From Cytophagales bacterium (lineage in GTDB: Bacteria > Bacteroidota > Bacteroidia > Cytophagales > Cyclobacteriaceae), in assembly GCA_025358885.1 (NCBI GenBank), contig JANYHW010000129.1, positions 1 to 36,553 of the forward strand: a DNA stretch of 36,553 nucleotides, written 5' to 3'. The notes below the pieces were generated by a model. That model ran no database searches. It worked only from the letters and a program-made list of their open reading frames with translations, and had not been told where the DNA came from. The first letter of the stretch is position 1. Each line of letters begins with the position of its first letter. Below are positions 19,477 to 36,553 of the stretch, piece by piece. The position numbers and the translations under genes are program-made.

Positions 19477-19479
19477 GTT

Positions 19480-20601
19480 ATGGAGGAAACCCTGATGGAT
19501 ATTGATCTGAAGGACAAAGAGGAATACATCGTTAACATGGGTCCTCAGCATCCGTCCACGCACGGCGTACTCAGGTTTGAAACATGCCTTCAGGGTGAAA
19601 AAGTAAAATACATTATCCCTCATTGTGGCTATATCCATCGCGGCATTGAGAAGATGTGCGAGAAGCTTACTTATCCACAGCTACTTCACCTTACCGATCG
19701 TATGGACTACCTCTCAGCCCATATCAATAATGAAGCCGTTTCCCTTTGTGTGGAAAATGCGATGGGCATTGAAGTAAGTGACCGCGTAAAATACATACGC
19801 ACGATCTTCGCCGAGCTAACACGTATCGCATCACACCAGCTATGGTGGTCAGCTTTTGGAATGGACCTGGGTGCACTCACGACATTTTTTTATGGTCTCC
19901 GGGATCGCGAAAAGATCCTGGACATCTTTGAAGAGACAACAGGTACCCGGTTGATCCAAAGTTTTATTACCCCTGGCGGTCTGATGGCCGATGTGCATCC
20001 AAATTTTCAAAGACGCATAAAGGAATTTATCACCTACTTCCGAAAGAAGCTTCCTGAATATGATCAGCTGCTCACCGGCAATATCATATTCCGTGAACGT
20101 ACCAAAGGTATCGGTGTCATGAGCAAGGAACTTGCCATTGATTACGGAGTCACTGGGCCCAGCGGCCGGGGCTCTGGCTTCCATTGCGACATAAGGAAAA
20201 TTGCTCCCTACAGTGCCTATCCATTTGTGAAGTTCAATGAGATCATCTTCCCTGAGGGCGACACCTATGCGCGCTATCTGGTCCGGATGAAGGAGATGTG
20301 GGAATCCCTGAACGTCCTTGAGCAGCTTGTGGACAATATCCCGCAAGGACAAATCATGTTGGAGTTGAAAGCCATCAAAGCACCGAAAGGAGAATATTAT
20401 CAGCGTGTTGAAACAGCCCGAGGCGAACTGGGAGTGTATATCGTGAGCGATGGCGGCCCATCGCCTGCCCGCATGAAATTCAGGACGCCGAACTTCTCTA
20501 ACTTGTTTATCATCAATAAGATAGCTTCCGGGCATAAGATCGCCGACCTGGTGGCCATCAGTGGATCATTGGACCTTGTTATACCCGATATAGACCGATA
20601 A
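19480..20601 (+). CDS. nuoD: Complex I subunit D (49-kDa type)
   Basis: This 373-residue subunit forms the quinone pocket with NuoB. Landmarks are [14 protein letters not shown] (residues 20-33, with the quinone-site His), [43 protein letters not shown] and the terminal [11 protein letters not shown]. The N-terminus is short, consistent with an unfused NuoD. The gene directly downstream (5 bp) is nuoH rather than nuoE, so the genes for the NADH-oxidising module are missing from the usual position. Confidence 0.96.
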
Positions 20602-20606
20602 GAGTT

Positions 20607-21683
20607 ATGTACGACTTCACACCCATGATCGATTCCATTACCGGATACCTGAACGGAGTTTTCACTCCATTTTGGGCTGGTTTGATCTCGATGGTGATGC
20701 TGGGTGTGGTGTTGCTGACAGTTTATGCTGTACTGGGATTGTATCTGGTGTTTGCAGAAAGAAAGATCTGTGCGAGAATGCAAAACAGGTTAGGTCCTAA
20801 CCGCGTAGGCCCGTTCGGTTTGTTCCAGACCATCGCCGATCTGATCAAACTTCTTTTGAAAGAACTGATATTCATCAAGAACGCCGATAATTTCCTGTTC
20901 AATATTGCGCCCTTCATTGTTATCATCGCCTCTATTATGGCCATTGGTTCAATTCCTTTCGCAAAGGGATTACAGGCGATTGATTTGAATATCGGTGTGC
21001 TCTACATTTTGGCCATTTCTTCCATGGGGGTGATTGGCATACTCATCGCGGGGTGGGCCAGCAACAGCAAGTACTCCGTTATCGGTGCGATGAGAAGCGG
21101 TGCCCAAGTGATCAGCTACGAATTGTCAGTAGGCCTTGCCTTGCTCTGCATCATCGTCTATGCCGGTTCGATGCAGTTCTCCGAGATCATTGCTTCTCAG
21201 GAAGATGGATGGTGGATTTTCAAGGGACACATTCCCGCATTCATTGCTTTTGTAATTTACCTCATCGCCGGAACGGCGGAGACAAATCGCGGTCCCTTTG
21301 ACCTGGCGGAAGCCGAATCAGAACTAACGGCTGGATTTCATACAGAGTATTCAGGTATCAAGTTCGCGTTCTTCTTTTTGGCGGAGTACATGAACATGTT
21401 CGTCATCGCTGCTATTGCGACAACCTTGTTTCTCGGCGGCTGGCTGCCTTTCCATTTATTTCAGTGGGCAGGCTTTAACCATGTAATGGATTATATACCA
21501 CCGGTCTTCTGGTTTTTTGCCAAGACTGCTTTTGTGATTTACCTGATGATGTGGTTCAAATGGACCTTCCCACGCCTTCGCATAGATCAGTTGCTGGCAC
21601 TAGAGTGGAAATATTTGTTGCCCATTAACCTCATTAACCTGATCCTGATATCATTCTTAACACTCATGCAATGGCACTTCTGA
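20607..21683 (+). CDS. nuoH: Complex I subunit H
   Basis: This 358-residue membrane subunit has eight or nine helices that link the quinone cavity to the proton channels. Diagnostic stretches are [23 protein letters not shown] (positions about 49-71), [38 protein letters not shown] (the acidic loop near quinone) and the [10 protein letters not shown] segment near the C-terminus. Length is normal. The 3' end overlaps nuoI by 13 bp. Confidence 0.96.
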
Positions 21684-22168
21684 AAACGATAAAGGAAGTA
21701 GGCAACTATTTCAATGAGATCTACGATGGTGTAGCCTCATTGGTGCGGGGTATGAAAGTGACTGGTGGCTACTTCATCAAGCGCGGACAAATTGTTACGC
21801 AGAAGTACCCCGAGAACAGGGCGACGCTGAAGATGTTTGACAACTTCAAAGGTGAACTTCAACTGATTCATGATGAAAATAATCAGCACTCCTGCAACGT
21901 CTGCAACACCTGCGCACGAAAATGCCCTAACGGATCCATTGAAGTGATCTACAAAAAAGTGGAAGGCGCTGACGGCAGGAGCAAGAAAATACTTGACAAA
22001 TACATATATCACCTGGAGACATGCTCCTTCTGCGGCTTGTGTGTACCTGCCTGTGATGAGCATGCGCTTCGCTTCGACCAGGAATTTGAGCATGCAGTAT
22101 TTGATAAAAGCAAACTCACGAAGGTATTAAACAAACCAGGTTCAACCTGTAAAGTCGTAAAAGAATGA
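21671..22168 (+). CDS. nuoI: Complex I subunit I (two [4Fe-4S] ferredoxin-type)
   Basis: This 165-residue peripheral-arm subunit carries clusters N6a and N6b. Both CxxCxxCxxxC motifs are present: Cys75, 78, 81, 85 ([12 protein letters not shown]) and Cys118, 121, 124, 128 ([12 protein letters not shown]). The second motif has Asp instead of the usual Pro after the last Cys. With NuoG absent from the locus, these clusters are the most exposed entry point for electrons from an external carrier. Its stop overlaps the nuoJ start (ATGA). Confidence 0.95.
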
Positions 22169-22674
22169 CAGGGCCAAGGATCATATTCTACATACTGGCT
22201 GCCTCCATTGTGGTGTTCTCCATTCTTTCAGTTACCAGCAGGAGAATTCTTCGAGCCGCAATCTACCTGCTGTTTGTGCTGGTGGCTATGGCGGGCTTGT
22301 ACTATATGATGAATTTTCAATTCCTGGCAGCCGTGCAATTGATGTTATATGCCGGTGGTATTGTTGTGTTGATCATCTTTTCGATTTTGCTTACGAGCCA
22401 GATCGACAGCAAGCTGGATCCCCCAAAGTTCAGTCACCTGCTTGGTGGCGTGTTTACCGCAGTGGGAGGAATCCTTCTAAGTACTATTACCCTTCTCCAA
22501 TTTGTATTTAAGCCCTCTGGCATCGCAGCGGTCGGTACTGATATTCGATCGGTGGGGAGACAACTGATGGATACAAACCTCGTGGGATATGCGTTGCCGT
22601 TTGAAGTCATCAGTGTATTGCTGCTGGCGGCATTGGTCGGATCCATATTTATTGCCAGAAAAGATCGCGTATGA
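22165..22674 (+). CDS. nuoJ: Complex I subunit J
   Basis: This 169-residue hydrophobic subunit has five helices. The conserved helix with FLAAVQLMLYAGGIVVLIIFSILLT includes the pi-bulge glycine region that couples quinone chemistry to the proton path. The C-terminal FEVISVLLLAALVGSIFIARKD is typical. It overlaps nuoI and nuoK by 4 bp each (ATGA junctions). Confidence 0.94.
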   Translation: MTGPRIIFYILAASIVVFSILSVTSRRILRAAIYLLFVLVAMAGLYYMMNFQFLAAVQLMLYAGGIVVLIIFSILLTSQIDSKLDPPKFSHLLGGVFTAVGGILLSTITLLQFVFKPSGIAAVGTDIRSVGRQLMDTNLVGYALPFEVISVLLLAALVGSIFIARKDRV

Positions 22675-22994
22675 ACCTTCAGTCTGAAATACCCCTTGAT
22701 TATATTGTTGTGCTGAGTGCAGTGGTCTTTTTTGTGGGCCTGCTGGGTGTGGTGATACGCAGAAACCTGATTTCCATGCTCATGGGTATCGAATTGATGC
22801 TCAATGCGGTGAATATCAACTTTGCAGCTTTTAATCATTACTTGTTTCCCAACCGTCTTGAGGGGCACTTCTTTGCTCTCATTGTTATGGCCATTGCTGC
22901 TGCTGAGGCTGCTATCGCCATTGCCCTGATCATTAACATTTACCGTCGCTTTGCCACCGTGAGTGTGGATGACGTTGATGAACTGAAATATTGA
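22671..22994 (+). CDS. nuoK: Complex I subunit K
   Basis: This 107-residue protein has three helices and is the MrpC/NuoK-type subunit. The key carboxylates are visible in MGIELMLNAVNINF and in the third helix region VMAIAAAEAAIAIALIINIYR. It begins in an ATGA overlap with nuoJ and ends 3 bp before nuoL. Confidence 0.95.
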   Translation: MNLQSEIPLDYIVVLSAVVFFVGLLGVVIRRNLISMLMGIELMLNAVNINFAAFNHYLFPNRLEGHFFALIVMAIAAAEAAIAIALIINIYRRFATVSVDDVDELKY

Positions 22995-22997
22995 GGC

Positions 22998-24905
22998 ATG
23001 GATTATTCGTACACGATACTGATTCTGCTTACCCCTGTCATACTCTTTCTCTTGATTGGGCTGCTCGGCGATAAAATTGACAAGATGCACGCAGGCCTGC
23101 TGGGCACCACAGGACTGTTTGCAATTACCATGCTTTCTTATTCCACGGCATTTAGTTATTTCAGTCATGGCACCGTGGAATCCTTTCAAAGCATAGAAGC
23201 ATTTCAGATTGTGTGGCTTCAATTCACAGATAACCTGATTATTCACCTTGGTATTTTACTGGATCCTCTTTCAGTCATGATGCTGGTGGTGATCACCACG
23301 GTGTCGTTGATGGTTCATATTTATAGTCTTGGATACATGAAAGGCGAGCCAGGATTCTCCCGGTATTTTGCCTTCCTCTCCTTATTTACTTTCTCGATGC
23401 TGGGATTGGTGGTGGCCACAAACATATTCCAGATGTATCTCTTCTGGGAGCTGGTAGGTGTTTCATCTTATTTACTCATTGGATTCTATTATGAACGCCC
23501 TTCCGCAGTTGCGGCAGCCAAGAAAGCATTCATCGTGACACGATTTGCAGACCTTGGATTCCTCATAGGAATTCTTCTCCTCTCCTTTTATACCAACACA
23601 TTTGATTTCAATACATTGACCGATGTGAATGGCCCTGCCATAGCGCAACCGATCACAAACGTCTTCATGGGACTCTCTGCTACCACATGGGCCATGCTGC
23701 TGATATTCATGGGTGGTGCTGGCAAGTCGGCGATGTTTCCCCTTCACATCTGGCTTCCGGATGCCATGGAAGGTCCTACACCCGTGTCGGCTTTGATCCA
23801 TGCGGCGACGATGGTAGTGGCTGGAGTTTACCTCGTAGCGCGTCTCTTTCCGATTTACTCTTTTTCGTCACCGGATTCACTGGAAGTCATTGCCTATGTG
23901 GGTAGTTTTACTTCTTTGTTCGCAGCCGTAGTCGCATGCACACAGCTTGATATAAAACGTGTGCTGGCCTTCTCTACCCTTTCTCAAATCGGGTATATGA
24001 TGGTGGCGCTCGGCGTTTCAGGCTACGGTGGTGAAGCGGGCCTTGGGTATATGGCCTCTCTCTTCCACTTATTTACTCATGCATTCTTCAAGGCCTTGCT
24101 CTTCCTTGGTGCCGGCTCAGTGATTCATGCCGTTCACAGTAACCTGATGACGGATATGGGTGGTCTTAAAAAATACATGCCGATCACGCACATCACCTTC
24201 TTGATTGCCTGTCTAACGATCGCCGGAATTCCTCCACTCTCCGGATTCTTCAGCAAAGATGAAATTCTGGTGGCAGCCTTTGAACACAACAAAATCATCT
24301 TCGGTGTGCAGTGGATGGTGGCAGGTATAACAGCCTTTTACATGTTCCGTTTGTATTTCAATATTTTCTGGAACAACAGTCCGGCCTACCACCATACGCC
24401 TCATGAGTCGCCAGCCACCATGACCGTGCCTCTGGTCATCCTTGCAATGCTTTCGATTTCTTCTGGGTTTGTTCCATTTCATGAATTTGTTACAAGCGAT
24501 GGACTTCCTTTGACTACTGAGTTTCACTGGATGATCGCCATACCCTCTGTCCTCGTTGCCATGGTTGGAATCGGTGTTGCGGCGGTATTGTATCGAAACA
24601 AGAATTCAAGACCTGAGTCTCTTGCTTTGGGAATGAAGTCGTTGTACACACTGGCCTATCATAAGTTTTATATCGATGAAGTTTATTTGTTTATCACCCA
24701 CAAGATCATCTTTGGCTTGATTTCGCGTCCGGTGGCATGGTTTGATCGCCACATCGTGGATGGCATCTTGAACCTCATTGGCAACACGACAGTATTTTTC
24801 TCCGGTTCTATCAAGAAAATGCAATCCGGTGAAGTGCAGTGGTACATATGGTACTTTACTTCTGGCGTTCTACTTCTCACATTGATGATCCTGTATTTTA
24901 ACTAG
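22998..24905 (+). CDS. nuoL: Complex I subunit L (antiporter-like)
   Basis: This 635-residue distal proton-pumping subunit is of the Mrp-antiporter type. Landmarks are HLGILLDPLSVMMLVVITTVSLMVHIYS, the key-Glu helix LFWELVGVSSYLLIGFYYERPSA, KSAMFPLHIWLPDAMEGPTPVSALIHAATMV, TQLDIKRVLAFSTLSQIGYM, SLFHLFTHAFFKALLFLGAGSVIH and GIPPLSGFFSKDEI. The long C-terminal lateral helix region is present (from about 560). It stops with TAG, 2 bp before nuoM. Confidence 0.96.
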   Translation: MDYSYTILILLTPVILFLLIGLLGDKIDKMHAGLLGTTGLFAITMLSYSTAFSYFSHGTVESFQSIEAFQIVWLQFTDNLIIHLGILLDPLSVMMLVVITTVSLMVHIYSLGYMKGEPGFSRYFAFLSLFTFSMLGLVVATNIFQMYLFWELVGVSSYLLIGFYYERPSAVAAAKKAFIVTRFADLGFLIGILLLSFYTNTFDFNTLTDVNGPAIAQPITNVFMGLSATTWAMLLIFMGGAGKSAMFPLHIWLPDAMEGPTPVSALIHAATMVVAGVYLVARLFPIYSFSSPDSLEVIAYVGSFTSLFAAVVACTQLDIKRVLAFSTLSQIGYMMVALGVSGYGGEAGLGYMASLFHLFTHAFFKALLFLGAGSVIHAVHSNLMTDMGGLKKYMPITHITFLIACLTIAGIPPLSGFFSKDEILVAAFEHNKIIFGVQWMVAGITAFYMFRLYFNIFWNNSPAYHHTPHESPATMTVPLVILAMLSISSGFVPFHEFVTSDGLPLTTEFHWMIAIPSVLVAMVGIGVAAVLYRNKNSRPESLALGMKSLYTLAYHKFYIDEVYLFITHKIIFGLISRPVAWFDRHIVDGILNLIGNTTVFFSGSIKKMQSGEVQWYIWYFTSGVLLLTLMILYFN

Positions 24906-24907
24906 CG

Positions 24908-26407
24908 ATGATCATGAACCCTCTCCTGCCATTACTTTTCGTTCCCTTCCTAACTATCGTCGGCATTGCGTTGGTGAAGGATATTTCCAGTGTTCGTTGG
25001 GTATCGGCTGTAGGCATGGGCACTCAGTTGATCTTTGCCTTCATCTTGCTCTACCTGTTCTATAAAGAAAGAAATGCTGGCAACACAGATTCCATGCTGT
25101 TTGTTTCCAGCACCATGTGGTATGAATCATTCAATATTCATTTGAAGTTTGGGGTAGATGGAATATCAGTAGCCATGATCCTGCTTACGGCTATTGTCAC
25201 CTTTGCGGGAATATTTGCGTCGTGGCAGGTAGAGTATCTGACTAAGGAGTTCTTCATTTCACTCATCATTCTAGCAGGCGGTGTATTTGGGTTCTTCATT
25301 TCCCTGGACCTGTTTACCATGTTCCTTTTCTATGAACTGGCGGTCATTCCGATGTACCTCCTCATTGGCATTTGGGGCAGTGGTCCAAAAGAATACTCAG
25401 CCATGAAGTTAACCCTTATGCTTATGGGCGGGTCTGCCTTGCTGTTGGTAGGAATGTTAGGGATTTATTTCAACTCCGCTCCCGACGGTGGCCAACTCAC
25501 TTTTGATTTGACGGAGATCGCTAAAGTGCACATACCCTACGCTGCACAGATGTTTTTTTTCCCATTCACATTCATCGGGTTTGGAGTTTTAGGAGCTTTG
25601 TTCCCTTTCCATACCTGGTCACCAGATGGTCACGCTTCGGCGCCAACGGCTGTTTCGATGCTACATGCTGGTGTATTGATGAAACTTGGGGGTTATGGAT
25701 GCTTCAGGGTGGCTATGTACCTGCTTCCAGAAGCTGCCCATTCGCTGGCCTGGATATTCATCATCCTGACGGGTATCGGCGTGGTGTACGGTGCATTCGG
25801 TGCAATCTGGCAAAAGGACTTAAAGTATATCAACGCATACTCCTCTGTGAGTCACTGCGGACTGGTGCTCTTTGCCTTGCTTATGATGAATGAGACGGCC
25901 ACAACGGGTGCAATTCTTCAAATGATCTCCCATGGATTGATGACGGCCCTCTTTTTTGCTTTGATTGGAATGATTTATGGACGCACACACACCCGCATGA
26001 TCAATGAAATGGGTGGACTTATGAAAGTTATTCCATTCCTCTCTGTGGTTTATGTTATTGCCGGTTTGGCATCCCTGGGACTTCCCGGATTGAGCGGCTT
26101 CGTTGCCGAGATGACGATTTTTGTCGGTTCATTTCAACACACGGACACCTTCCATCGTGTCGCGACCATTGTGGCATGTTCCTCCATCGTCATCACTGCA
26201 GTGTATATACTGAGAGTAGTTGGCACCTTGCTGCTTGGCCCGATCACAAACAACCACTACCTCGAACTCAAGGACGCGCAATGGTTTGAGAAGATCAGCA
26301 CGGTAACGCTGGTAACATCAATAGCCATCATAGGTTTGACACCATTTTGGATATCCACACTGATCCATGAACCCCTGGCGCAGATGATTCAACATCTTAT
26401 TCCGTAG
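24908..26407 (+). CDS. nuoM: Complex I subunit M (antiporter-like)
   Basis: This 499-residue proton-pumping subunit shows FGVDGISVAMILLTAIVTFAGIFAS, the key-Glu helix LFYELAVIPMYLLIGIWG, FPFHTWSPDGHASAPTAVSMLHAGVLMKLGGYG, DLKYINAYSSVSHCGLV and the LGLPGLSGFVAEM motif. Fourteen helices and normal length. ATG codons at 24908 and 24914 are both possible starts; the first is chosen because it is 2 bp after the nuoL stop. It ends with TAG, 3 bp before nuoN. Confidence 0.96.
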   Translation: MIMNPLLPLLFVPFLTIVGIALVKDISSVRWVSAVGMGTQLIFAFILLYLFYKERNAGNTDSMLFVSSTMWYESFNIHLKFGVDGISVAMILLTAIVTFAGIFASWQVEYLTKEFFISLIILAGGVFGFFISLDLFTMFLFYELAVIPMYLLIGIWGSGPKEYSAMKLTLMLMGGSALLLVGMLGIYFNSAPDGGQLTFDLTEIAKVHIPYAAQMFFFPFTFIGFGVLGALFPFHTWSPDGHASAPTAVSMLHAGVLMKLGGYGCFRVAMYLLPEAAHSLAWIFIILTGIGVVYGAFGAIWQKDLKYINAYSSVSHCGLVLFALLMMNETATTGAILQMISHGLMTALFFALIGMIYGRTHTRMINEMGGLMKVIPFLSVVYVIAGLASLGLPGLSGFVAEMTIFVGSFQHTDTFHRVATIVACSSIVITAVYILRVVGTLLLGPITNNHYLELKDAQWFEKISTVTLVTSIAIIGLTPFWISTLIHEPLAQMIQHLIP

Positions 26408-26410
26408 TTT

Positions 26411-27835
26411 ATGAGCTGGCAGACCTTTTCCATCATGCGCTTCGAAATCCTTCTCTCGTTGATGATTTTGTATCAACTCGTGGCGGATTTGTCGGAGAAG
26501 GAGAACAAACGGATGGTGGTCAATGCAACGATCTTCATTTTCGGGATTATCACCTTAATTGGTTTTCTTCCCTCAGAGGACTCCAGCCTTTTCGGTAGTA
26601 TGTATATTACTGATGGACTAAGGGTTCTTTTGAAGAACATCCTGAATGTCTCCACGCTGATCATCCTCTTGCAATCCGCCGTTTGGCTTGGGAAGGAGGA
26701 GAACCATTCGAAGACGGGACCATTTTATCTGTTGATATTCTCCACCCTGATTGGTATGTATTTCATGATCTCCGCTGGAGATTTTCTCATGCTGTACCTC
26801 GGGCTCGAGTTGGCTACCCTGCCGTTGACCATCCTCGCAGCCTTTGACAAGAAGTTGAGGCGCTCCGCAGAAGCGGGGATTAAACTGATGATGTCCTCTG
26901 CAGTTTCTTCGGCGATTCTGTTGTTTGGTGTTTCTCTGATGTATGGAATTTACGGCACCTTACATTTTGCAGAAATGACCCTTTTGCAGGATAGCAGCGC
27001 CCTGTCGATTTTATCGCTGGTGTTCTTCATTTCTGGTTTGGGATTCAAGCTTTCATTGGTTCCTTTCCACCTCTGGACGGCCGATGTGTATGAAGGTTCG
27101 CCGCTGCCGGTCACCACCTACTTCTCCGTAGTGTCCAAAGGAGCGGCCTTATTTACTTTAATGCTTGTTCTATACAGGGTATTCGGCGATCAACCAAGGG
27201 TGTGGTCACTTACGGCCTATTTCTTATCGATTACAACCATGGTTGTTGGTAACCTCTTCGCTCTTCGTCAGCAAAACCTGAAGCGGTTCCTTGCCTTTTC
27301 GTCCATCACCCAGGCGGGGTTCATGATGCTTGGCTTTGTCAACCCCGATGCGCTAGGCATGAACACCATCATTTATTTTATGCTCATCTACTCCTTGTCC
27401 AATCTGGCTGTCTTTGGGGTTTTGTCTATAGTCATCAATGCCACTGGTAAAGAGACCATGGATGACTTCAATGGATTCTATTCCACGAATCCGCGTCTTA
27501 GCCTGGTCCTATTACTTGCGTTGTTTTCCCTTGCCGGCATTCCTCCGGTAGCCGGATTTTTTGGCAAGTTCTTCCTGTTTACAGCTGCTGCGGCGAAGGG
27601 CATGTACATCCTCGTCTTTATCGCAGTGTTGAATGCCACTTTATCCCTCTATTACTATTTGCTCGTGGTGAAGGCGATGTTTATCAACAAGAATGAATCA
27701 CCAATTCCTTATCTGCCGGTTTCCGGATATGAGAAAGTAGCGCTGTCCCTTTGCTTTGCAGGCATTGTTCTGATTGGCTTCCTGAGCATTATTTTCGACT
27801 ACGTTCAGGCAATGGTAAATCTGACTAGTTTATAA
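26411..27835 (+). CDS. nuoN: Complex I subunit N (antiporter-like)
   Basis: This 474-residue proton-pumping subunit is the last gene of the nuo operon. It is recognised by GDFLMLYLGLELATLPLTILAAFD (key Glu), KLSLVPFHLWTADVYEGSPLPVTTYFSVVSKGAA, RQQNLKRFLAFSSITQAGFM and LAGIPPVAGFFGKFFLF. The 96-bp interval to korA shows no clear intrinsic terminator, so readthrough into korAB is plausible. Confidence 0.96.
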   Translation: MSWQTFSIMRFEILLSLMILYQLVADLSEKENKRMVVNATIFIFGIITLIGFLPSEDSSLFGSMYITDGLRVLLKNILNVSTLIILLQSAVWLGKEENHSKTGPFYLLIFSTLIGMYFMISAGDFLMLYLGLELATLPLTILAAFDKKLRRSAEAGIKLMMSSAVSSAILLFGVSLMYGIYGTLHFAEMTLLQDSSALSILSLVFFISGLGFKLSLVPFHLWTADVYEGSPLPVTTYFSVVSKGAALFTLMLVLYRVFGDQPRVWSLTAYFLSITTMVVGNLFALRQQNLKRFLAFSSITQAGFMMLGFVNPDALGMNTIIYFMLIYSLSNLAVFGVLSIVINATGKETMDDFNGFYSTNPRLSLVLLLALFSLAGIPPVAGFFGKFFLFTAAAAKGMYILVFIAVLNATLSLYYYLLVVKAMFINKNESPIPYLPVSGYEKVALSLCFAGIVLIGFLSIIFDYVQAMVNLTSL

Positions 27836-27931
27836 ACCTGTCGCGTCTCAGGATTGCAGATGACCAAAGTCATGGTTGACAAGCCGGGGTATGGGTAGTT
27901 TAGGCCTGTATTAGGACAATTCTGAATCATT

Positions 27932-29776
27932 ATGACGAAAATAATTGAACACCTGGAAGAAGCGACCATCCGGTTTGCAGGTGACTCCGGAGATGGTATG
28001 CAACTGGTGGGCAGCCAGTTCTCTGAAACATCAGGCTTTGCCGGAAATGAAGTGAATACCTTCCCGGACTACCCCTCTGAGATACGTGCCCCAGAAGGGA
28101 CGTTGTATGGTGTGAGCGCTTTCCAAATTCATTTTGGAAAAGACCACATTCATACGTCGGGTGATCACATCGATGTGCTGGTTGCCATGAATGCTGCATC
28201 ACTCAAGGTGAATATGGGTAACCTCAGACCTGGCGGAATCATTATTGCAAATACGGAGGGATTTGACGAACGGAGCCTTGCCCTGGCAAAATACAGCAGC
28301 AACCCACTTGAAGATGAAAGCCTGAGCAAGTACCAGGTCCATGCCGTAGATATTACCAAAGAAATTAAAACGGAAGTCAAAGACCTCAATCTTCCATCCA
28401 AGATTGTCAGTAAGACTAAGAATATTTTTGCACTGGGTATGGCTTATTGGCTGTTTAACCGTCCGCTGGACCCGACCGTAAATTGGATCAATAAGAAGTT
28501 CAAAGGCAAAGATGAAACCATCCTTGCCAACATTCATGTGCTGCGCGCGGGGTGGAATTATGCCGAAAAGAATGTTGCCTTTCAAACACAATATGTTGTT
28601 GATCGTTCTTCCCTGTCTCCGGGCCGTTATCGGAGTATAACCGGCAATGAGGCAGTTGCTCTTGGACTTGTGGTTGCTGCCCGTAAATCAAATCTTCCAC
28701 TGTTCCTTGGATCCTATCCCATCACACCGGCCACAGATATTCTTCATGCGATTTCAGGTTACAAGAAATATGGCGTAAAACATTTGCAGGCCGAAGATGA
28801 GATCGCCGGAATTTGCAGTGCCATAGGTGCTGCATTTGGTGGAAGCCTTGCAGCAACCACGACCAGTGGACCGGGGCTCTCCCTCAAGACGGAAGCCATG
28901 GGCCTGGCCGTGATGACCGAACTGCCGCTGATCATCGTCGATGTTCAACGTGCGGGACCTTCCACTGGTTTGCCTACCAAACCGGAGCAAGGTGATTTGT
29001 TGATGGCCATGTTTGGTCGTCATGGCGAAGCGCCTATGCCGGTGCTTGCAGCCGCCAGTCCTTCTGATTGTTTTGCACTTACCCTGGAGGCTGCACGGAT
29101 TGCGTTGAAATACATGACGCCCGTGTTACTATTGACAGACGGTCACATCGGACAATCTTCAGAGCCATGGAAAGTTGCCGCTTTGACTGAACTCCCTGAA
29201 ATCAAAGCACACTTTGCACAGGATGCCTCTGCTTTCGCTCCCTACAAACGGGATGAAAAGACATTGCGCAGGGAGTGGGCCATTCCAGGCTTTGAGGGAA
29301 TGGAGCATAGAATTGGTGGACTGGAAAAAGAAGATGGTTCTGGAAATGTTAGCAGCGATTCTGTAAATCATGAAAAGATGGTAAGGCTTCGCCAGCACAA
29401 GATTGACAACATCGCCAATGATATACCGGAAGTTCTCGTGGAAGGAGAACAGGAAGGTGATGTACTCCTTCTGAGCTGGGGCAGTACCTATGGTGCAGCC
29501 AAGACTGCGTTTGACAGGATGCGTGCCAATGGAGAAGTCCTCTCGTTTGCACACTTGCGTTACATGCACCCATTCCCAAAGAACCTGAGAGATATTCTCA
29601 GCCGGTTTAGCCGCGTTGTACTACCGGAACTCAACATGGGACAGTTGCAATTGTTACTTCAAGGCAAATACCTGAAACCGATCATTGGTATTCATAAAGT
29701 AGGCAAGCCCTTCAAGTCAACTGAACTTGAAGAGAAATTGATGAACATCCTTCATAAAAATGAAATATTGGCATAG
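27932..29776 (+). CDS. korA: 2-oxoglutarate:ferredoxin oxidoreductase, alpha subunit (gamma-alpha fusion)
   Basis: This 614-residue protein fuses the gamma domain (about 10-195; RFAGDSGDGMQLVGSQFSET, FPDYPSEIRAPEGT, VAMNAASLK) to the alpha domain (from about 232; GNEAVALGLVVAARKSNLPLFLGSYPITPATDILH, EDEIAGICSAIGAAFGG, TTTSGPGLSLKTEAMGLAVMTELPLIIVDVQRAGPSTGLPTK). The length and fused order match the KorA of two-subunit CoA-dependent oxidoreductases, as in Mycobacterium. With KorB it oxidises 2-oxoglutarate to succinyl-CoA and CO2 and passes electrons to a low-potential carrier; closely related enzymes prefer pyruvate, so specificity is inferred. It lies 96 bp after nuoN. In that gap, TAGTTTAG at 27896-27903 is one mismatch from the Bacteroidota -7 element, a weak promoter hint. 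It stops with TAG. Confidence 0.92.
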   Translation: MTKIIEHLEEATIRFAGDSGDGMQLVGSQFSETSGFAGNEVNTFPDYPSEIRAPEGTLYGVSAFQIHFGKDHIHTSGDHIDVLVAMNAASLKVNMGNLRPGGIIIANTEGFDERSLALAKYSSNPLEDESLSKYQVHAVDITKEIKTEVKDLNLPSKIVSKTKNIFALGMAYWLFNRPLDPTVNWINKKFKGKDETILANIHVLRAGWNYAEKNVAFQTQYVVDRSSLSPGRYRSITGNEAVALGLVVAARKSNLPLFLGSYPITPATDILHAISGYKKYGVKHLQAEDEIAGICSAIGAAFGGSLAATTTSGPGLSLKTEAMGLAVMTELPLIIVDVQRAGPSTGLPTKPEQGDLLMAMFGRHGEAPMPVLAAASPSDCFALTLEAARIALKYMTPVLLLTDGHIGQSSEPWKVAALTELPEIKAHFAQDASAFAPYKRDEKTLRREWAIPGFEGMEHRIGGLEKEDGSGNVSSDSVNHEKMVRLRQHKIDNIANDIPEVLVEGEQEGDVLLLSWGSTYGAAKTAFDRMRANGEVLSFAHLRYMHPFPKNLRDILSRFSRVVLPELNMGQLQLLLQGKYLKPIIGIHKVGKPFKSTELEEKLMNILHKNEILA

Positions 29777-29798
29777 GACCACAGTAAAACTTTAAGAA

Positions 29799-30848
29799 AT
29801 GAAAACACAAGTAGACGATCTTTTAGCCAGGCCCCATGCTGGCAACCTGGTATATACGGCCAAAGACTTTAAACCGGAAGTGGACGTGAGGTGGTGTGCC
29901 GGTTGCGGGGCATTGTCCGTGCTGTCACCTTCGCAGCGACTGATGCCTGATCTTGGTCTACCCAAAGAAAAGATTGTATATGTCTCTGGCATCGGGTGCT
30001 CAGGAAGGTTTCCATATTACATGGATACCTATGGCTTTCACTCTATCCATGGACGGGCGTTGGCCATCGCATCTGGCTTGAAAATAGCCAGAACCGACTT
30101 AAGTGTGTGGGTTGTAACAGGAGACGGCGACAACATGAGCATAGGCGGAAATCATTTTATTCATGCATGCCGCCGCAATGTGGACATGAACGTAATGATG
30201 TTCAACAACGAAGTGTACAGCCTGACCAAAGGTCAGTACTCTCCTACTTCTCATCGCGGACAGATCACCAAGTCATCTCCACTGGGCGTGTTGGATGATC
30301 CATTTAACCCCGTTTCACTGGCATTGGGTGCAGGGGCTACATTTGTTGCTCGTGGCCATGACAAAGACCGCGCACAACTGCAAGGGCTGCTGAAAAGGGC
30401 CTATGAGCACAAGGGCGTTGCATTCGTAGAAATCTATACCAACTGCCGCATTTTCAACGACGGTGCCTTTGATCTGTATACCAATGCCGATACCCGAGAT
30501 AATCACACGATCTTTCTGGAGCATGGTAAACCCCTCATCTTCGGCAAGACGAAGAACAAAGGGATCATCATGGACGGCTATACTCCTCAGGTTGTGAACC
30601 TTGACCAGGGTGATCATTCCATAAGCGATCTGCTCATCCACAATGAGAAAGACAGCACCCTGGCATTTATCCTTGCCAACATGACCTACAGTGAAGACCT
30701 GCCCCGCCCGATGGGTGTTCTGCAGGCCATTCAGCGGGCGCCTTACGAAGAGCGCGTAGTCAACCAGATTCAGCATGAAATAGTTACGAAGGGTGAAGGT
30801 GATTTGCAGAGTCTGCTAACAGGGGAAACGAGTTGGTTGATTGCCTGA
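29799..30848 (+). CDS. korB: 2-oxoglutarate:ferredoxin oxidoreductase, beta subunit
   Basis: This 349-residue TPP-binding and single-cluster subunit starts 22 bp after korA. The TPP/Mg motif is GDGDNMSIGGNHF (108-120), followed by MFNNEVYSLTKGQYSPTS. The one [4Fe-4S] cluster is ligated by Cys33 and Cys36 (WCAGCGALSV), Cys67 (GIGCSGRFPYY) and Cys216 (TNCRIF). There is no ferredoxin-like delta subunit, as expected for this two-subunit type, so electrons leave directly from the proximal cluster to an external carrier. The position directly after nuoN suggests that this carrier also serves complex I. Confidence 0.93.
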   Translation: MKTQVDDLLARPHAGNLVYTAKDFKPEVDVRWCAGCGALSVLSPSQRLMPDLGLPKEKIVYVSGIGCSGRFPYYMDTYGFHSIHGRALAIASGLKIARTDLSVWVVTGDGDNMSIGGNHFIHACRRNVDMNVMMFNNEVYSLTKGQYSPTSHRGQITKSSPLGVLDDPFNPVSLALGAGATFVARGHDKDRAQLQGLLKRAYEHKGVAFVEIYTNCRIFNDGAFDLYTNADTRDNHTIFLEHGKPLIFGKTKNKGIIMDGYTPQVVNLDQGDHSISDLLIHNEKDSTLAFILANMTYSEDLPRPMGVLQAIQRAPYEERVVNQIQHEIVTKGEGDLQSLLTGETSWLIA

Positions 30849-31024: not shown

Positions 31025-32098
31025 TTACTTTGCGACAACCCTCCTGGACTCCCTCTCTCCATTTCGTTTTCTCATGGGTTGCACTTCCAGCATGAGCAGG
31101 CTTGTGCTAATAAGATCACCCATCGTATTTGCCTGAAGGGAGCGGTCATCTTCATAGAGATCTGCCAATTCGCTGCTAAGCTTGCGGGTGTTTTCTTCCG
31201 TGGACAAAATCTCCTTTTTCATAGCATTGAGCAACATGGGCAGCTGCTCAGAGGCAGCCCGCACACGAGTCAATAGCCTGGTCCGTTCTTCCTTCTGGTA
31301 TTGAAGTTCCAGGACCTGTGACATGCTTTTGAAACCGAGGTTGATGATAGGGTTGTTCTCTTTGAAGTATTGAGGCATGTAAATTTTCACATTTCCTTCG
31401 TAACAATGCTGATCGAAATCGATTGCCCTCAGGCGGAAGTACAGTTCGTCAAAGTCGGGGATCACTTCCACAATGAAATTATCATTGCGCATGTCGCCAA
31501 GAAGTTGCACGAGGCTTCTCTCATTGAACTTCACAAATTCCTTTGCAACGCGCAATGGGTTGAATTCATTCTTCGGAAGGAATTCCTTAATGAAGGAGTC
31601 ACCCGGAATACCCTGGATGTGTTCTTCAATAAGGGTCGCCCCTTTTACGAGGTAGTTGATCTTGTTGGGTGACAGCAGGTGTTCCAACTCCATTCCGTAA
31701 ATACGAGACATGTCGGCCTGCTTGATATAGAAATAGTCGAACAAGTCATTGAGTTTGTTGACGATGCGGACCCGAAGTGGATGAGTGTTAGCGTAGAGGC
31801 AATAGTCTACGCGGTCTATGTACAAGTGTTCAATGACGCTTACATCGCCATCTACTTTCAGTTGAGCATACTCCTTCCTCAAGCAATCATGAATAAACTT
31901 GCGGTCGGACTCACCATAAATCAACGTTTCCCAAAGGGTGTCATTCCCCTTTTTGTCAAAGAGGGTGACCGAGCTGTGATGGTGAAGCAAGTCGGAATAT
32001 GACATGGGTACTTCAATCTCACGGTTGGTGAGCATGAGGTACCCGCGGAGTGCTTTACTCACCGGATAAGAAGGCTTCTTAAACCGGATCTCTGCCAT
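31025..32098 (-). CDS. Conserved-looking protein of unknown function with kinase-like motifs
   Basis: The protein has 357 residues from ATG 32096-32098, two bases from the flavodoxin stop; an extended frame to 32140 would overlap flavodoxin and is less likely. I do not recognise a named family. Three segments in order resemble a protein-kinase-like or aminoglycoside-phosphotransferase fold. LIEEHIQGIPGDSFI (156-170) looks like a hinge. LLGDMRNDNFIV (199-210) looks like a catalytic loop with Asp202 and Asn207 in the DxxxxN spacing, and AIDFDQ (225-230) looks like the metal-binding DFG position. The N-terminal 150 residues lack an obvious glycine-rich loop. The C-terminal 90 residues are charged and helical (about 270-330), probably coiled. 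The gene is tightly coupled to flavodoxin and is last in the PFOR unit. The kinase reading is inference only. Confidence 0.75.
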   Translation of the reverse strand: MAEIRFKKPSYPVSKALRGYLMLTNREIEVPMSYSDLLHHHSSVTLFDKKGNDTLWETLIYGESDRKFIHDCLRKEYAQLKVDGDVSVIEHLYIDRVDYCLYANTHPLRVRIVNKLNDLFDYFYIKQADMSRIYGMELEHLLSPNKINYLVKGATLIEEHIQGIPGDSFIKEFLPKNEFNPLRVAKEFVKFNERSLVQLLGDMRNDNFIVEVIPDFDELYFRLRAIDFDQHCYEGNVKIYMPQYFKENNPIINLGFKSMSQVLELQYQKEERTRLLTRVRAASEQLPMLLNAMKKEILSTEENTRKLSSELADLYEDDRSLQANTMGDLISTSLLMLEVQPMRKRNGERESRRVVAK

Positions 32099-32099
32099 C

Positions 32100-32609
32100 T
32101 TATTGGAACTCGCCCTTGAGCTGGGCGACCCACTTTTCAATTCGACCTTCCGTCAGGTCTTTCTGATTATCTTCATCAATAGCGAGCCCCAGGAACTTTC
32201 CATTGACAACTCCTTTTGAGGCTTCGAAGTTGTAGCCATCTTTTGGCCATGCTCCGACAAAGCTGGCTCCCTTGTCCTTGATGCGATCATGAATGATTCC
32301 CATGGCATCCTGAAAGGTGTCAGGGTATCCATCAGCATCGCCGAGACCGAGGTACGTAACCCGCTTTCCGGCATAGTCAACGTCTTCCAATTGATCAATG
32401 AAGCTGTCCCAGTCTTCTTGCAGTTGCCCTATCTCCCAGGTGGGGCACGCCAAAATCAGGTTGGGATATGGCGCCATGTCCTCGGATGTAGCGGAGTTCA
32501 CATTGTGTAATACCACGTTGGGCTCTCCACCAAGTGCCTGCTGCAATTGACCGACTACCCTTTCCGTGTTGCCTTCGGTAGATCCGAAGAAGATTCCAAT
32601 TTGAACCAT
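32100..32609 (-). CDS. fldA: Long-chain flavodoxin
   Basis: This 169-residue flavodoxin is a soluble FMN one-electron carrier. The phosphate-binding loop GSTEGNTE (residues 9-16) and the FMN ring-stacking regions CPTWEIGQLQEDW (about 55-67) and GLGDADGYPDTFQDAMG (about 93-109) are clear. The insertion after residue 120 (WPKDGYNFEASKGVVNGKFLGLAIDEDNQ) makes it the long-chain type. The product ends with IEKWVAQLKGEF. It is 32 bp downstream of the dihydroorotate-dehydrogenase-like gene and 1 bp upstream of the kinase-like gene. No ferredoxin gene is in the window, so it is the natural candidate acceptor for the PFOR and possibly for KorAB. Confidence 0.95.
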   Translation of the reverse strand: MVQIGIFFGSTEGNTERVVGQLQQALGGEPNVVLHNVNSATSEDMAPYPNLILACPTWEIGQLQEDWDSFIDQLEDVDYAGKRVTYLGLGDADGYPDTFQDAMGIIHDRIKDKGASFVGAWPKDGYNFEASKGVVNGKFLGLAIDEDNQKDLTEGRIEKWVAQLKGEFQ

Positions 32610-32641: not shown

Positions 32642-33691
32642 TTAAAGATCATTGTCATGTTCGTTCTGCAATTCGCCACGCTTGGGATGGTATTGCATGA
32701 ATACATCGGATTTCATCAGGATATCTACATACTGAGCACGCTTGTAAGCAAATGGATCCGCCAGATTTTTTTTAGACAGGTGACCCCTGAAGGAGGCTAT
32801 GGTGTCATAGTCATGGTCCTTCATCCAGTGTTCAATTTCTTCCAGCATCGTAGAGACATATTGGATACCTTTCTTGTAGATGGAACTTACAATCTGAACT
32901 GCATCGGCGCCGGCGAGCAGCATTTTTACTACGTCTTTGCCGTTCAGAACACCCGTGTTAGCAATCACACTTCCCATGGTTTTTGTATGCAACAGACCTG
33001 CATAGCGCAGCGCAAGGCGATTGTCATTCTCACTGCTGAAGTTGTATGGATAGTAGTGCTCTACCTTGTCGACATCAATGTCAGGTTGAAACAATCTATT
33101 GAACAACACAAAACCATTGCTACCCGCATTGTCCATCCGGTGGATAAGTTGCAGTGGATTGGAATAGAATGGACTCAGTTTTACAAAGAGAGGAAGCTTT
33201 ACTGCATGCCTTACCCTCCTGAGCGTTTCAATTTGACCGGATTCGATCGAAGCGCTACCGGTTTCAAAATCGCTGGGGTGGCTATAGAAATTCAGTTCCA
33301 ACCCGTCAATCCCGGTTGACTCCATTTCCTTGGCAAACTGTACCCAGGTTTCATCATGAATGCAGTTCAGACTTCCTATGAGTGGAATATTCAGAGAACG
33401 TTTCGCCGCCTTGAGTTGCATCAGGTGTTCTGCGGGACCAGCGTGTTTTACTTTGGGAAAGAAGGAATCATGCTCGGCATCCCAGCCTTTAAAGGAATCC
33501 ATTTTTTGATCCATGGCCAATGCCTCGAGCTCAATTTGCTCCTCAAACAACGATTTATATACTATGGCCGCAGCACCCGCTTGTTCAAGCTTGATCAGGT
33601 TGGCAGGGTCGGTGACCAGGTTGCTGGCTCCAATGACAATTGGATTCTTCAGCGAAATGCCACCGTAGTTGGTTGATAGGTTGATGCTCAT
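32642..33691 (-). CDS. Dihydroorotate dehydrogenase-like flavoprotein
   Basis: This 349-residue TIM-barrel protein is of the PyrD-like type often encoded beside nifJ/PFOR. It shows LSTNYGGISLKNPIVIGASNL, GAAAIVYKSLFEEQIE, IPLIGSLNCI, GIDGLELNFYSHPSD (about 128-141), LPLFVKLSPFYSNP, and IANTGVLNGKDVVKMLLAGADAVQIVSSIYKKG (phosphate/FMN-binding end of the barrel). The catalytic-loop consensus of true PyrD (NxSCPN or NxSSPN) is replaced by NFYSHPS, with Ser137 where the catalytic base would be. It is therefore doubtful that it oxidises dihydroorotate. It is 11 bp downstream of the PFOR gene and cotranscribed by position. The physiological substrate of this subgroup is not established; a redox role tied to PFOR is inferred. 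Confidence 0.88.
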   Translation of the reverse strand: MSINLSTNYGGISLKNPIVIGASNLVTDPANLIKLEQAGAAAIVYKSLFEEQIELEALAMDQKMDSFKGWDAEHDSFFPKVKHAGPAEHLMQLKAAKRSLNIPLIGSLNCIHDETWVQFAKEMESTGIDGLELNFYSHPSDFETGSASIESGQIETLRRVRHAVKLPLFVKLSPFYSNPLQLIHRMDNAGSNGFVLFNRLFQPDIDVDKVEHYYPYNFSSENDNRLALRYAGLLHTKTMGSVIANTGVLNGKDVVKMLLAGADAVQIVSSIYKKGIQYVSTMLEEIEHWMKDHDYDTIASFRGHLSKKNLADPFAYKRAQYVDILMKSDVFMQYHPKRGELQNEHDNDL

Positions 33692-33702: not shown

Positions 33703-36553
33703 TTAGGCTTCCGACAAATGTTTAATATCCTTGAACCGTTGATCGTTGTCTTTTTCGGCGAGTGCCACCAGGCGTTTGGCTTCTTCCGGGTTAGTGAGGT
33801 TGAGGGTCTTATAACGGATTTCTTCTTCGAGGTACGCCTCAAAACCTGTATCGACTTCGACGCCATCCCAGCTGAACGGATTAAGCGACTCCTTCCGTGC
33901 ATCAGGGTTGAAGCGGTACATCGGCCAGTATCCGCACTTTGCAGCCTTCTCGGATTGTTTTTTCGTGAACTTCATGTCATATCCATGGGCAATGCAAGGA
34001 GAATAAGCGATAATGATGGAAGGTCCGATGTGCTTTTCAGCCTCCACGAATGCGAGTGCTGTTTTCTCCCGATCCATACCCATGTTGACTGAAGCAACGT
34101 ACGCATTGCTATAGGTTGCCATCATCAAGCCAAGGTTCTTCTTGCTCAACTTCTTGCCATCGGAAGCAAACTTGGCTACGGCACCGCGGGGTGTTGATTT
34201 AGATGCTTGCCCGCCCGTGTTGGAATAAACCTCCGTGTCCACCACCAGGATATTCACATTGCGATTGGATGACATGACGTGGTCTAGTCCGCCAAAGCCG
34301 ATGTCATATGCCCATCCATCTCCGCCAAAGATCCATACACTCTTATCAACAAAATAATCTTCAAGCTCAACCACTTTGTCGAGTATCAGACTCTTGCCTG
34401 AAATTTTCTGTTCGGCAGCCAGCAATTGCTTCAGCTGATCAGCATTTGCTTTTGCTTCGCTTGTAACTTCATTGAAAAGCCTCATGCCTTTTTGTAGTGA
34501 AGACTTCAGGCCCTCGCTGATAGAAGTTTCAAGAAGTGCCTCTACATTTGTCTTCAATTGTCTCCGGTTGGCATCGACAGCGAGGCGCATGCCCAGTCCG
34601 AATTCGGCATTGTCTTCAAAAAGTGAGTTAGCCCATGCCGGACCCTTGCCGTTCTTGTCCTTTGTGTAAGGCGTCAATGGGAATGTGCCTCCATAAATCG
34701 ATGTGCAGCCGGTGGCATTGGCAATAATCATGCGGTCGCCATACAATTGGGTGACCATATGGATATATGGAACTTCACCACAGCCCGAGCAGCTTGGAGG
34801 ATATTCTATATATGGCTCTGCCACGTTGGGCTCGCTTACAAATGGAAGTTTTTCAATCCATGTCGCTGGATTACCTGGTATCCCCCTATATTCCAGGCGC
34901 TTGGTACCGGTTGGAACCGCTCCATTCACAGGCATAAAGGAGACAGGAATATTATCCCCCTTGAGTCTTAGGATCGGATCAATGATATTATCGGCGAACC
35001 AGCCGGAACCAGCCGGAACTACAGCCGTGATTTCTGTGAACTTATCAGACTCTTCAGGTATAGGAATTGATACTACAGCAGCTGCGGAGGCATCAATGGC
35101 TTTCCAGTTCATTTCCACAATCTCCGGGCCTTTTCGTGCAAATTGTTTTTGGACAAACTTCTTGATCAACTCGATCGCTTCACTTTCAGGAAGTACACCC
35201 GAGACCTTAAAGAAAGCTGTTTGCATCACGGAACTTATCCTTCCACCGAGTCCCACGCTCTTGGCAATCTTCGAGGCGTCAATGGCAAATACCTTAACCT
35301 TCTTTTGTCGAATGGTATCCTGCATCGCTTTCGTGAACATCCGGAATACATTTTCAGGCTTCTGACTGGTATTGAAGAGGAAAGTCCCTCCTTCTGTGAT
35401 GCCTTCAAGGATATCATACTGTCCTATGTATTGAGCTCTGTGCAAGGCGACAAAGTCCACTTTGTTCAAAAGGTATTCGGACTGTATCCGTTCTTTGCCG
35501 AAGCGAAGGTGAGAGATTGTCCAGCCACCGGACTTGTTGGAATCATATTGGAAATAACCTTGCACAAACAAGTCTGTACTTTCCCCAATGATCTTGATGG
35601 CATTCTTGTTGGCGCTCACGGTTCCGTCTGAGCCATAGCCCCAGAACTTGCAGCGAACGATTCCTTTTTGTTCTGTATCGATGTCTTCTTTTACGGTGAT
35701 GGACTTCTTCGTTACGTCATCGTTGATTCCCACAGTGAAATTGTGCCATCCATTGTTGTCAAGGTGATTGTAAACAGCCTTCACCATCGATGGCGTGAAT
35801 TCCTTGGAAGACAAGCCGTACCGCCCTCCAATTACCTGTATACCAGATCGTTGTCCTGCAGCAAGCGCCGCAACAATATCCAGGTACAAGGGTTCGCCGA
35901 GGGCACCTGGCTCCTTGGTTCTGTCAAGCACAGCAATCTTCTTGACCGACTTGGGGATTTCATTAAGAAAATCTTCTAAGGCGAATGGCCTGTACAGCCT
36001 GAGTTTTAGTAGCCCGACCTTTTCCCCTTTCTTCCTCAGGTAGTTGATGGTCTCCTCAATGGTTTCGGTGCCGGACCCCATCGCAATGATGATCTTCTCT
36101 GCATCCGGTGAGCCGATGTACTCATATAGTTTATATTGCCGACCGGTTTTTTCACCAAAAAGTTTCATGTATTTCTTTACAATTGCCGGGCAGGCCTCAT
36201 AATATTTGTTAACCGTTTCTCTTCCCTGGAAGTACACATCTGGGTTTTGGGCTCCTACTTTGCAGATGGGTGCTTCGGGCCTTAGTGCCATAGCCCGGAA
36301 TTCTTCCACGTACTTCATGTCCACCATACTTCTCATTTCATCATAGGTAATCGGAATGATTTTCTGAATGGAGTGAGAAGTACGGAATCCGTCGAAGAAG
36401 TGAAGGAAAGGAATTTTAGATTCAAGGGTTGCCAGATGGGACACCACCGCCATATCCTGTGCTTCCTGGACACTCGAAGACGCAAGCATGGCAAACCCTG
36501 TTCCCCGGGTTGCCATCACATCAGAGTGGTCGCCAAAGATGGACAGCGACTGG
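33703..36553 (-). CDS. nifJ: Pyruvate:ferredoxin (flavodoxin) oxidoreductase, N-terminus outside window, lacking domain V
   Basis: The frame is open to the window edge; about 950 C-terminal residues are visible, beginning SLSIFGDHSDVMATRGTGF. It oxidises pyruvate with CoA to acetyl-CoA and CO2, using TPP. Visible parts are the domain I/II region (HFFDGFRTSHSIQKI, AQNPDVYFQGRE), the CoA-binding domain (GSGTETIEETINYLRKKGEKVGLLKLRLYRPF, DRTKEPGALGEPLY), the large linker domain (CKFWGYGSDGTVSANKNAIK, GYFQYDSNKSGGWTISHLRFG), and the TPP domain (FGGDGWAYDIGFGGLDHV, DTEVYSNTGGQASKSTPRGA). The proximal cluster cysteines are in CSGCGE, ATGCTS and YSPCIAHG. Between TWIEK (34850-34860) and CSGCGE (34780-34791) only about 20 residues remain. 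Canonical PFORs have more than 100 residues there, with two CxxCxxCxxxCP clusters. The reading frame is uninterrupted. Confidence 0.93.
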   Translation of the reverse strand, partial: QSLSIFGDHSDVMATRGTGFAMLASSSVQEAQDMAVVSHLATLESKIPFLHFFDGFRTSHSIQKIIPITYDEMRSMVDMKYVEEFRAMALRPEAPICKVGAQNPDVYFQGRETVNKYYEACPAIVKKYMKLFGEKTGRQYKLYEYIGSPDAEKIIIAMGSGTETIEETINYLRKKGEKVGLLKLRLYRPFALEDFLNEIPKSVKKIAVLDRTKEPGALGEPLYLDIVAALAAGQRSGIQVIGGRYGLSSKEFTPSMVKAVYNHLDNNGWHNFTVGINDDVTKKSITVKEDIDTEQKGIVRCKFWGYGSDGTVSANKNAIKIIGESTDLFVQGYFQYDSNKSGGWTISHLRFGKERIQSEYLLNKVDFVALHRAQYIGQYDILEGITEGGTFLFNTSQKPENVFRMFTKAMQDTIRQKKVKVFAIDASKIAKSVGLGGRISSVMQTAFFKVSGVLPESEAIELIKKFVQKQFARKGPEIVEMNWKAIDASAAAVVSIPIPEESDKFTEITAVVPAGSGWFADNIIDPILRLKGDNIPVSFMPVNGAVPTGTKRLEYRGIPGNPATWIEKLPFVSEPNVAEPYIEYPPSCSGCGEVPYIHMVTQLYGDRMIIANATGCTSIYGGTFPLTPYTKDKNGKGPAWANSLFEDNAEFGLGMRLAVDANRRQLKTNVEALLETSISEGLKSSLQKGMRLFNEVTSEAKANADQLKQLLAAEQKISGKSLILDKVVELEDYFVDKSVWIFGGDGWAYDIGFGGLDHVMSSNRNVNILVVDTEVYSNTGGQASKSTPRGAVAKFASDGKKLSKKNLGLMMATYSNAYVASVNMGMDREKTALAFVEAEKHIGPSIIIAYSPCIAHGYDMKFTKKQSEKAAKCGYWPMYRFNPDARKESLNPFSWDGVEVDTGFEAYLEEEIRYKTLNLTNPEEAKRLVALAEKDNDQRFKDIKHLSEA

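Follow-up and report, generated by a model that had tools for sequence, protein, structure and literature searches.

A pyruvate:ferredoxin oxidoreductase gene lacking domain V

The stretch of DNA analysed here (36,553 nucleotides, referred to as the window) is an entire contig, JANYHW010000129.1 (G000:C79), of the Cytophagales bacterium assembly GCA_025358885.1. At one end it carries, on the reverse strand (33703..36552), a gene for a single-chain (homodimer-type) pyruvate:ferredoxin oxidoreductase (PFOR) without domain V. The encoded 949-residue fragment matched TIGR02176 with 1266.7 bits, above the cut-off of 911.35 even without the N-terminal part. The Pfam domains follow each other in the order POR_N, PFOR_II, POR, EKR and TPP_enzyme_C, corresponding to domains I, II, III, IV and VI. 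The 5' end of the gene lies beyond the contig edge. Its first 120 codons were found by homology (85% to locus L003), intact, on another contig of the same genome (G000:C134:2-361), and we infer that C134 and C79 join within the PFOR gene.

In the PFOR frame the sequence RGIPGNPATWI is followed by the 21-residue linker EKLPFVSEPNVAEPYIEYPPS (34792..34854, reverse strand) and then by CSGCGE. The alignment showed that the linker replaces approximately 114 residues of domain V, with eight cysteines and two [4Fe-4S] clusters. When compared by phmmer with the PFORs of Moorella and Desulfovibrio africanus, the protein aligned in two pieces (query residues 2-566/567 and 576/577-947/948), and chain residues 683-796 of 6cin and 686-799 of 1b0p were skipped. 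In the aligned canonical relatives the skipped stretch contains two CxxCxxCxxxCP motifs. The usual description of a single-chain PFOR includes three clusters in a row; the domain V with two such motifs that marks the canonical three-cluster enzyme is missing from the window PFOR. Nor is the protein divided into separate alpha and beta subunits of the StOFOR/KorAB type, as it is encoded by one open frame. The absence of domain V is real: the passage from RGIPGNPATWI to CSGCGE without domain V, pointed out in a preliminary description of the window, was confirmed by reading of the frame and by the phmmer alignment to canonical PFORs. The short linker of the description also exists, although its exact length is 21 rather than about 20 residues.

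Distribution of the short form

In the genome searches a PFOR was called short if its match ran without a gap across the junction; canonical matches were split at about residue 566. Of the 36 matching genomes in the window's family (295 searched, own genome included), 21 had the short form, and four further short-PFOR genomes in the window's genus raised the number to 25. Strong matches were found in 13 of 291 genomes of the order sample; four of these were family members already counted, five genomes belonging to another family (f19) were short, and the four others were split in two. Among the matches listed, 4 of the 214 matching genomes of the phylum sample (395 searched), all from the window's family, and 3 of the 155 matching genomes of Spirochaetota (296 searched; G727, G1020 and G857) were short; both match lists were sorted by score, so that gapless matches come first. 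The total was 33 genomes among the matches listed: 25 from the window's family, five from f19 and three from Spirochaetota. Loci L012-L015, which are contigs of G025, G081, G220 and G239, were counted once.

The gap also occurs in well-assembled genomes (G085 and G264, each one contig; G074, 10 contigs; G857, a 3.29-Mb contig). Since it is present in 33 genomes, it is neither due to chance nor an in-frame assembly deletion. The search of related genomes for the same gap, which the preliminary description had suggested as a check, thus rejected such a deletion.

Conserved cysteines, class-specific residues and selection

The cysteine pattern was compared in an alignment of 75 rows (32 short and 43 canonical). 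In every one of the 32 short rows the eight domain V cysteine columns were gaps, and all 43 canonical rows had cysteine in them. All proximal-cluster cysteines are present in the 949-residue fragment, at positions 588, 591, 616 and 853. The first two ligands (CSGC, 34780..34791, reverse strand) and the third (ATGC, 34705..34707, reverse strand) are kept in all 32 short and all 43 canonical rows; the fourth (SPC, 33994..33996, reverse strand) is kept in 31/31 and 41/41 of the rows that have a letter there. The columns and the Pfam order bear out the earlier observation that the domain V cysteines are gone while the flanking domains and the proximal cysteines are intact. Because of this conserved pattern, a single cluster is expected per short chain, in contrast to three in the canonical enzyme, and a one-cluster PFOR would need to hand its electrons directly to a carrier. 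The same prediction in the preliminary description is supported to this extent.

Across 52 aligned proteins, six of them short, neither the four cluster ligands nor the GDGWxYD motif varied. Eighteen positions held a different fixed residue in each class (in at least 90% of short and at least 80% of canonical sequences); among them L699Y, S703P and K716H (numbering of the short relative L013) border the CSGCGE loop at 706-711. Eleven short relatives, counted from the chosen start, have 1066-1079 residues. The ratio of nonsynonymous to synonymous substitution rates (dN/dS) was 0.02 to 0.09 in six of eight short-PFOR pairs (dS 0.20 to 1.41), the other two pairs being saturated. The short PFOR is under purifying selection.

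Linkage to a flavodoxin gene

In the window the PFOR gene is followed on the same strand by a gene for a dihydroorotate-dehydrogenase (DHOD)-like flavoprotein of the PRK07565 subfamily (32642..33691; NF005741, 364.7 bits, cut-off 303) and by a gene for a long-chain flavodoxin (32100..32609; TIGR01752, 218.4 bits, cut-off 146.75), both on the reverse strand. The top PDB matches of the latter are flavodoxins, e.g. 6kif, 1czl and 1flv. There are 30 Bacteroidota short loci, and in all 28 that have downstream sequence the PFOR, DHOD-like and flavodoxin genes lie on one strand; in L106 and L239 the sequence stops 1 or 2 bases downstream. In G126 the PFOR contig ends, and another contig starts with the DHOD-like and flavodoxin genes. 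In contrast, a phmmer search with the window's flavodoxin as the sole query detected no flavodoxin in the flanks of 43 canonical loci, 41 of them with at least 1.5 kb downstream; L168 and L175, with less than 300 bases downstream, are included in the 43. These loci comprise 14 of the 16 canonical family genomes, 22 loci of the phylum sample, three of Spirochaetota and four of the order sample. Distances of neighbours were measured to the matched part of PFOR, not to its start codon.

The arrangement in the spirochaete G857 is different from that of the Bacteroidota cassette: the flavodoxin gene (L225:6856-7344) lies upstream, with 222 bases between its end and the PFOR match, and the DHOD-like gene is downstream of PFOR. 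A second, weaker DHOD-like match lies upstream on the opposite strand in this genome. Neither flavodoxin nor a DHOD-like gene was found in the PFOR flanks searched in G1020 and G727.

At the genome level, the family encoded a long-chain flavodoxin in 25/25 short-PFOR genomes, 9/16 canonical genomes and 2/26 genomes without PFOR, the 26 having been hand-picked from many without a match. In the nine canonical genomes the flavodoxin gene is on a contig different from that of PFOR. The corresponding numbers for Spirochaetota were 3/3 short and 3/21 canonical genomes, the 21 being taken from the higher-scoring matches. All 28 short-PFOR genomes that were searched whole (25 of the family and three of Spirochaetota; the five of f19 are outside this set) thus contain the gene. 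The proposal of the preliminary description that flavodoxin is a plausible carrier is supported by the linkage (28/28 short Bacteroidota versus 0/43 canonical loci), by the differently ordered linkage in G857 and by the presence of flavodoxin in every short-PFOR genome searched.

The open reading frames (ORFs) with a cluster motif in the flanks of short loci encode NuoI, RnfB and RnfC; in addition there are frames of 582 and 51 codons with one motif each. The preliminary description had named as an alternative a domain V ferredoxin encoded as its own subunit next to the missing 5' end. None was seen in the flanks or in the 1.5 kb beyond the C134 part, and the candidate was rejected for the regions searched.

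A conserved 371-codon ORF (31025..32140, reverse strand) lies beside most cassettes, where it follows flavodoxin; in the same family it is also found upstream of canonical PFOR at L169-L172. It had no match in Pfam or NCBIfam, and its PDB match was at chance level only. At L181 (G019, of the window's genus) a canonical PFOR and its DHOD-like neighbour are each split into two frames, either by decay or by a draft-assembly frameshift.

Genes for Rnf, complex I and KorAB

Beyond the cassette, rnf genes were found in 18 of the 30 Bacteroidota short loci (for G126 via its second contig), three of which end before all of rnfB, rnfC, rnfD and rnfG become visible. The Rnf subunits of G007 scored over the cut-off. 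In G857 rnf genes are located upstream of flavodoxin, at the far upstream end of the locus. A nuo operon lies beyond the cassette in six loci (the window, L145, L146, L155, L157 and L164), with korAB between cassette and nuo in four of them; these four loci correspond to one four-row clade of the PFOR tree. The remaining loci are L235 with korAB alone, four that end early at contig ends, and L237, where nothing was recognised within 7.3 kb beyond the cassette.

The nuo operon of the window (nuoABCDHIJKLMN, 18042..27835, forward strand) is an 11-gene complex I operon and a candidate electron sink. B, C, D, H, I, J, L, M and N were identified by NCBIfam models (C, I and J below the cut-offs), A and K by ORF reading. 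There is no nuoE, nuoF or nuoG, nuoD (19480-20601) being directly before nuoH (20607-21683). Directly after nuoN, on the same strand, comes korA-korB (27932..30848), encoding a two-subunit 2-oxoacid oxidoreductase: KorA matched TIGR03710 with 634 bits (cut-off 482.75), KorB matched TIGR02177 with 247 bits, below the cut-off of 261.9. Over 18042-30848, an operon for a complex I without the NADH module therefore ends in korAB.

Flavodoxin is directly beside rnfBCDG at L220 and L223, in G060, a genome with no PFOR match, and G254, whose PFOR is canonical. It seems that flavodoxin and rnf also form a unit independently of the short PFOR.

Elsewhere in the window (838-8873), three ORFs of 764, 557 and 308 amino acids match the ADOP permease family below the cut-off; the last two lie side by side on the same strand and perhaps represent a split gene.

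Evolutionary origin of the short PFOR

A maximum-likelihood PFOR tree was built without the domain V columns and rooted at the midpoint. The truncated sequence of G022 was left out, so that 32 of the 33 short genomes were included. All 32 short rows formed one clade with a Shimodaira-Hasegawa-like approximate likelihood ratio (SH-aLRT) support of 100. The nearest canonical row is that of G890 (Spirochaetota), within a group of Spirochaetota sequences, and most canonical PFORs of Bacteroidota, those of the window's family included, fall elsewhere. An earlier tree with different canonical rows gave the same placement of the short forms.

Two other histories were considered. Repeated independent losses are unsupported, as the short rows are on one side of one branch. 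Loss within the PFORs of Bacteroidota is likewise unsupported, the short clade grouping with sequences of Spirochaetota, Lentisphaerota, Verrucomicrobiota and Cloacimonadota.

In the DHOD-like tree, also midpoint-rooted, the short-linked proteins, G857 included, were separated from the canonical-linked ones by a 100/100 branch; the canonical-linked side contains a single row from outside Bacteroidota. One short clade nested among Spirochaetota PFORs points to one loss and horizontal transfer. Domain V was probably lost once, in a spirochaete, if the direction suggested by the midpoint root is correct. The PFOR and DHOD-like genes would then have been transferred from a spirochaete to Cytophagales, where the pair may have landed before a resident flavodoxin-rnf locus. 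The flavodoxin tree was weak at its base and had several long branches; the identification of the cassette flavodoxin as the resident, rnf-linked one is therefore tentative and rests mainly on the gene order in G060 and G254, two of the four other family genomes examined.

Discussion

Known relatives of the short PFOR share part of its architecture. The homodimeric PFOR/NifJ enzymes (1b0p, 6cin) are likewise single chains with domains I, II, III, IV (EKR) and VI and the four proximal cysteines, and the short relative L013 is 51-55% identical to them over the aligned residues. They differ in having domain V, and three [4Fe-4S] clusters as against the one expected here. The authors of a Thermoanaerobacter kivui study state that most PFORs possess domain V and that domain IV is confined to dimeric enzymes (PMC8091585). 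In Sulfolobus tokodaii, StOFOR1/2 (5b48/5b46) lacks domain V; its sole cluster lies close to the surface of a sizeable pocket between domains III and VI, into which the authors modelled a dicluster ferredoxin (PMC5020499). StOFOR consists of two subunits (III-I-II fused, plus VI) and lacks domain IV, whereas the short PFOR is one chain with domain IV. The two enzymes are alike in the absence of domain V and in having one cluster, which for the short PFOR is suggested by the cysteine pattern. The Magnetococcus 2-oxoglutarate oxidoreductase (OGOR, 6n2n) and KorAB are also two-subunit, one-cluster 2-oxoacid oxidoreductases. Among the matches listed from openly licensed PubMed Central papers, titles and beginnings of abstracts revealed no single-chain PFOR with domain IV and without domain V.

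By analogy, the short PFOR should have a StOFOR-like pocket, and gene linkage suggests flavodoxin as its guest. An AlphaFold monomer model of L013 had a predicted local distance difference test score (pLDDT) of 79 and a predicted template modelling score (pTM) of 0.74. It was superimposed on 6cin over 1002 residues with Z 57.8 and a root-mean-square deviation of 21.4, because of which its domain placement is unreliable; the region matching the linker was a low-confidence loop (residues 673-686 and 690-695).

We propose, with a probability of roughly 0.7, that the short protein functions as a pyruvate oxidoreductase after the permanent loss of domain V, and that this presumed one-cluster PFOR passes electrons directly to flavodoxin, which would feed Rnf or complex I. 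Pyruvate would be oxidised at the thiamine pyrophosphate as usual, and the electrons would go to the sole remaining cluster. Flavodoxin would dock in the space vacated by domain V and take the electrons one at a time, and its hydroquinone would feed a membrane ion pump. In most carriers of the cassette this pump would be Rnf; in the window's lineage it would probably be the 11-subunit complex I, which is also beside korAB. A bolder version, that the loss of domain V converted a PFOR reducing ferredoxin into an obligate flavodoxin enzyme whose domain V pocket is filled by flavodoxin as a removable stand-in for the lost clusters, and that PFOR, flavodoxin and Rnf or the complex I without the NADH module make up a swappable, horizontally spread and ferredoxin-free module that links the oxidation of pyruvate to ion pumping, is offered tentatively, at somewhat less than even odds.

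Flavodoxin use by PFOR as such is not new. The primary paper on the flavodoxin-complex I route of Campylobacterota is reportedly that of Weerakoon and Olson (2008), and the pyruvate oxidoreductase (POR) of Helicobacter pylori is said to be encoded by porCDAB and hence to be multi-subunit. The short PFOR differs from this route in being one chain, with most cassettes adjoining rnf. The Campylobacterota POR is described as a pyruvate:flavodoxin oxidoreductase, and their complex I, in which nuoEF is replaced, as likely coupling to flavodoxin or ferredoxin (PMC6682613); these accounts provide a precedent for flavodoxin feeding a nuoEF-replaced complex I (PMC6682613, PMC11238625). Rnf is described as an energy-conserving ferredoxin:NAD+ enzyme (PMC7414866, PMC5861303). 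The likeness here is the presence of rnf genes beside 18 cassettes, and flavodoxin as an Rnf donor is suggested by gene order only.

Several observations weigh against the transfer of electrons through flavodoxin to these pumps. In Eubacterium limosum flavodoxin as well as ferredoxins are reduced by the canonical POR (PMC13390469), so that loss of domain V is not needed for flavodoxin use. The partner of StOFOR, which likewise has no domain V, is a dicluster ferredoxin, so that a ferredoxin might fit the pocket just as well; other Fer4 proteins are indeed encoded in the short-PFOR genomes. The flavodoxin gene of G1020 is about 36 kb from PFOR and that of G727 is on another contig. Among the nearest canonical relatives outside the samples, three of five genomes have a long-chain flavodoxin. 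The Bacteroidota linkage is probably one inherited arrangement rather than 28 independent events; because most short loci share one ancestor, independent support for it amounts to perhaps two or three events. In G067 and G136, two of the four other family genomes examined, flavodoxin is not beside rnf. Three canonical loci adjoin nuo plus korAB, several more korAB and one rnfC. Finally, NuoF was found over the cut-off on another contig (C237) of the window's genome, which therefore probably has a second, NADH-type complex I.

Among the alternatives, the best surviving one, which we regard as unlikely, is that the pocket is occupied by a soluble dicluster ferredoxin whose gene lies elsewhere in the genome, flavodoxin serving only as a secondary or iron-limitation carrier. 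For this there is the precedent of StOFOR with its cognate dicluster ferredoxin (PMC5020499). Fer4 matches were found in frames of 111 to 129 codons in G007, G178, G264 and G085, the shortest Fer4 frame among the matches listed for the window's genome having 150 codons. However, no small two-cluster ferredoxin ORF was found in the flanks searched of 34 short loci or within 1.5 kb of the 5' end, and the linked carrier is flavodoxin, not ferredoxin. It is still less probable that the exposed cluster gives electrons by direct docking to RnfB/RnfC or NuoI, with PFOR as an input module and flavodoxin serving elsewhere. The rnf genes beside 18 cassettes and the nuo genes beside six, the window operon without nuoEFG that runs into korAB, and G1020 and G727 without a nearby flavodoxin would all fit such docking, but wherever PFOR and the pump genes were seen on the same contig they are separated by the flavodoxin gene. 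Decay or repurposing of a paralogue, which would then not be a working pyruvate oxidoreductase, appears very improbable as an explanation of the short protein: two of the three clusters are lost and pyruvate is the presumed substrate, but the low dN/dS of six pairs, the invariant cluster ligands and GDGWxYD motif, and the open frames in two phyla speak for function. An in-frame assembly deletion or collapse, conceivable for a contig of a fragmented assembly with the gene running off its end, can be dismissed in view of the identical gap in 33 genomes, the single-contig G085 and G264 among them.

A PFOR with presumably one cluster, kept in two phyla and linked to flavodoxin by gene order, would allow a direct test of the role of domain V, and of whether the choice of carrier depends on what fills the domain V pocket. 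Gene order ties this soluble pyruvate enzyme to Rnf in some lineages and to a complex I without the NADH module in close relatives, and the linkage to nuo may bear on the question of the electron donor to the 11-subunit complex I.

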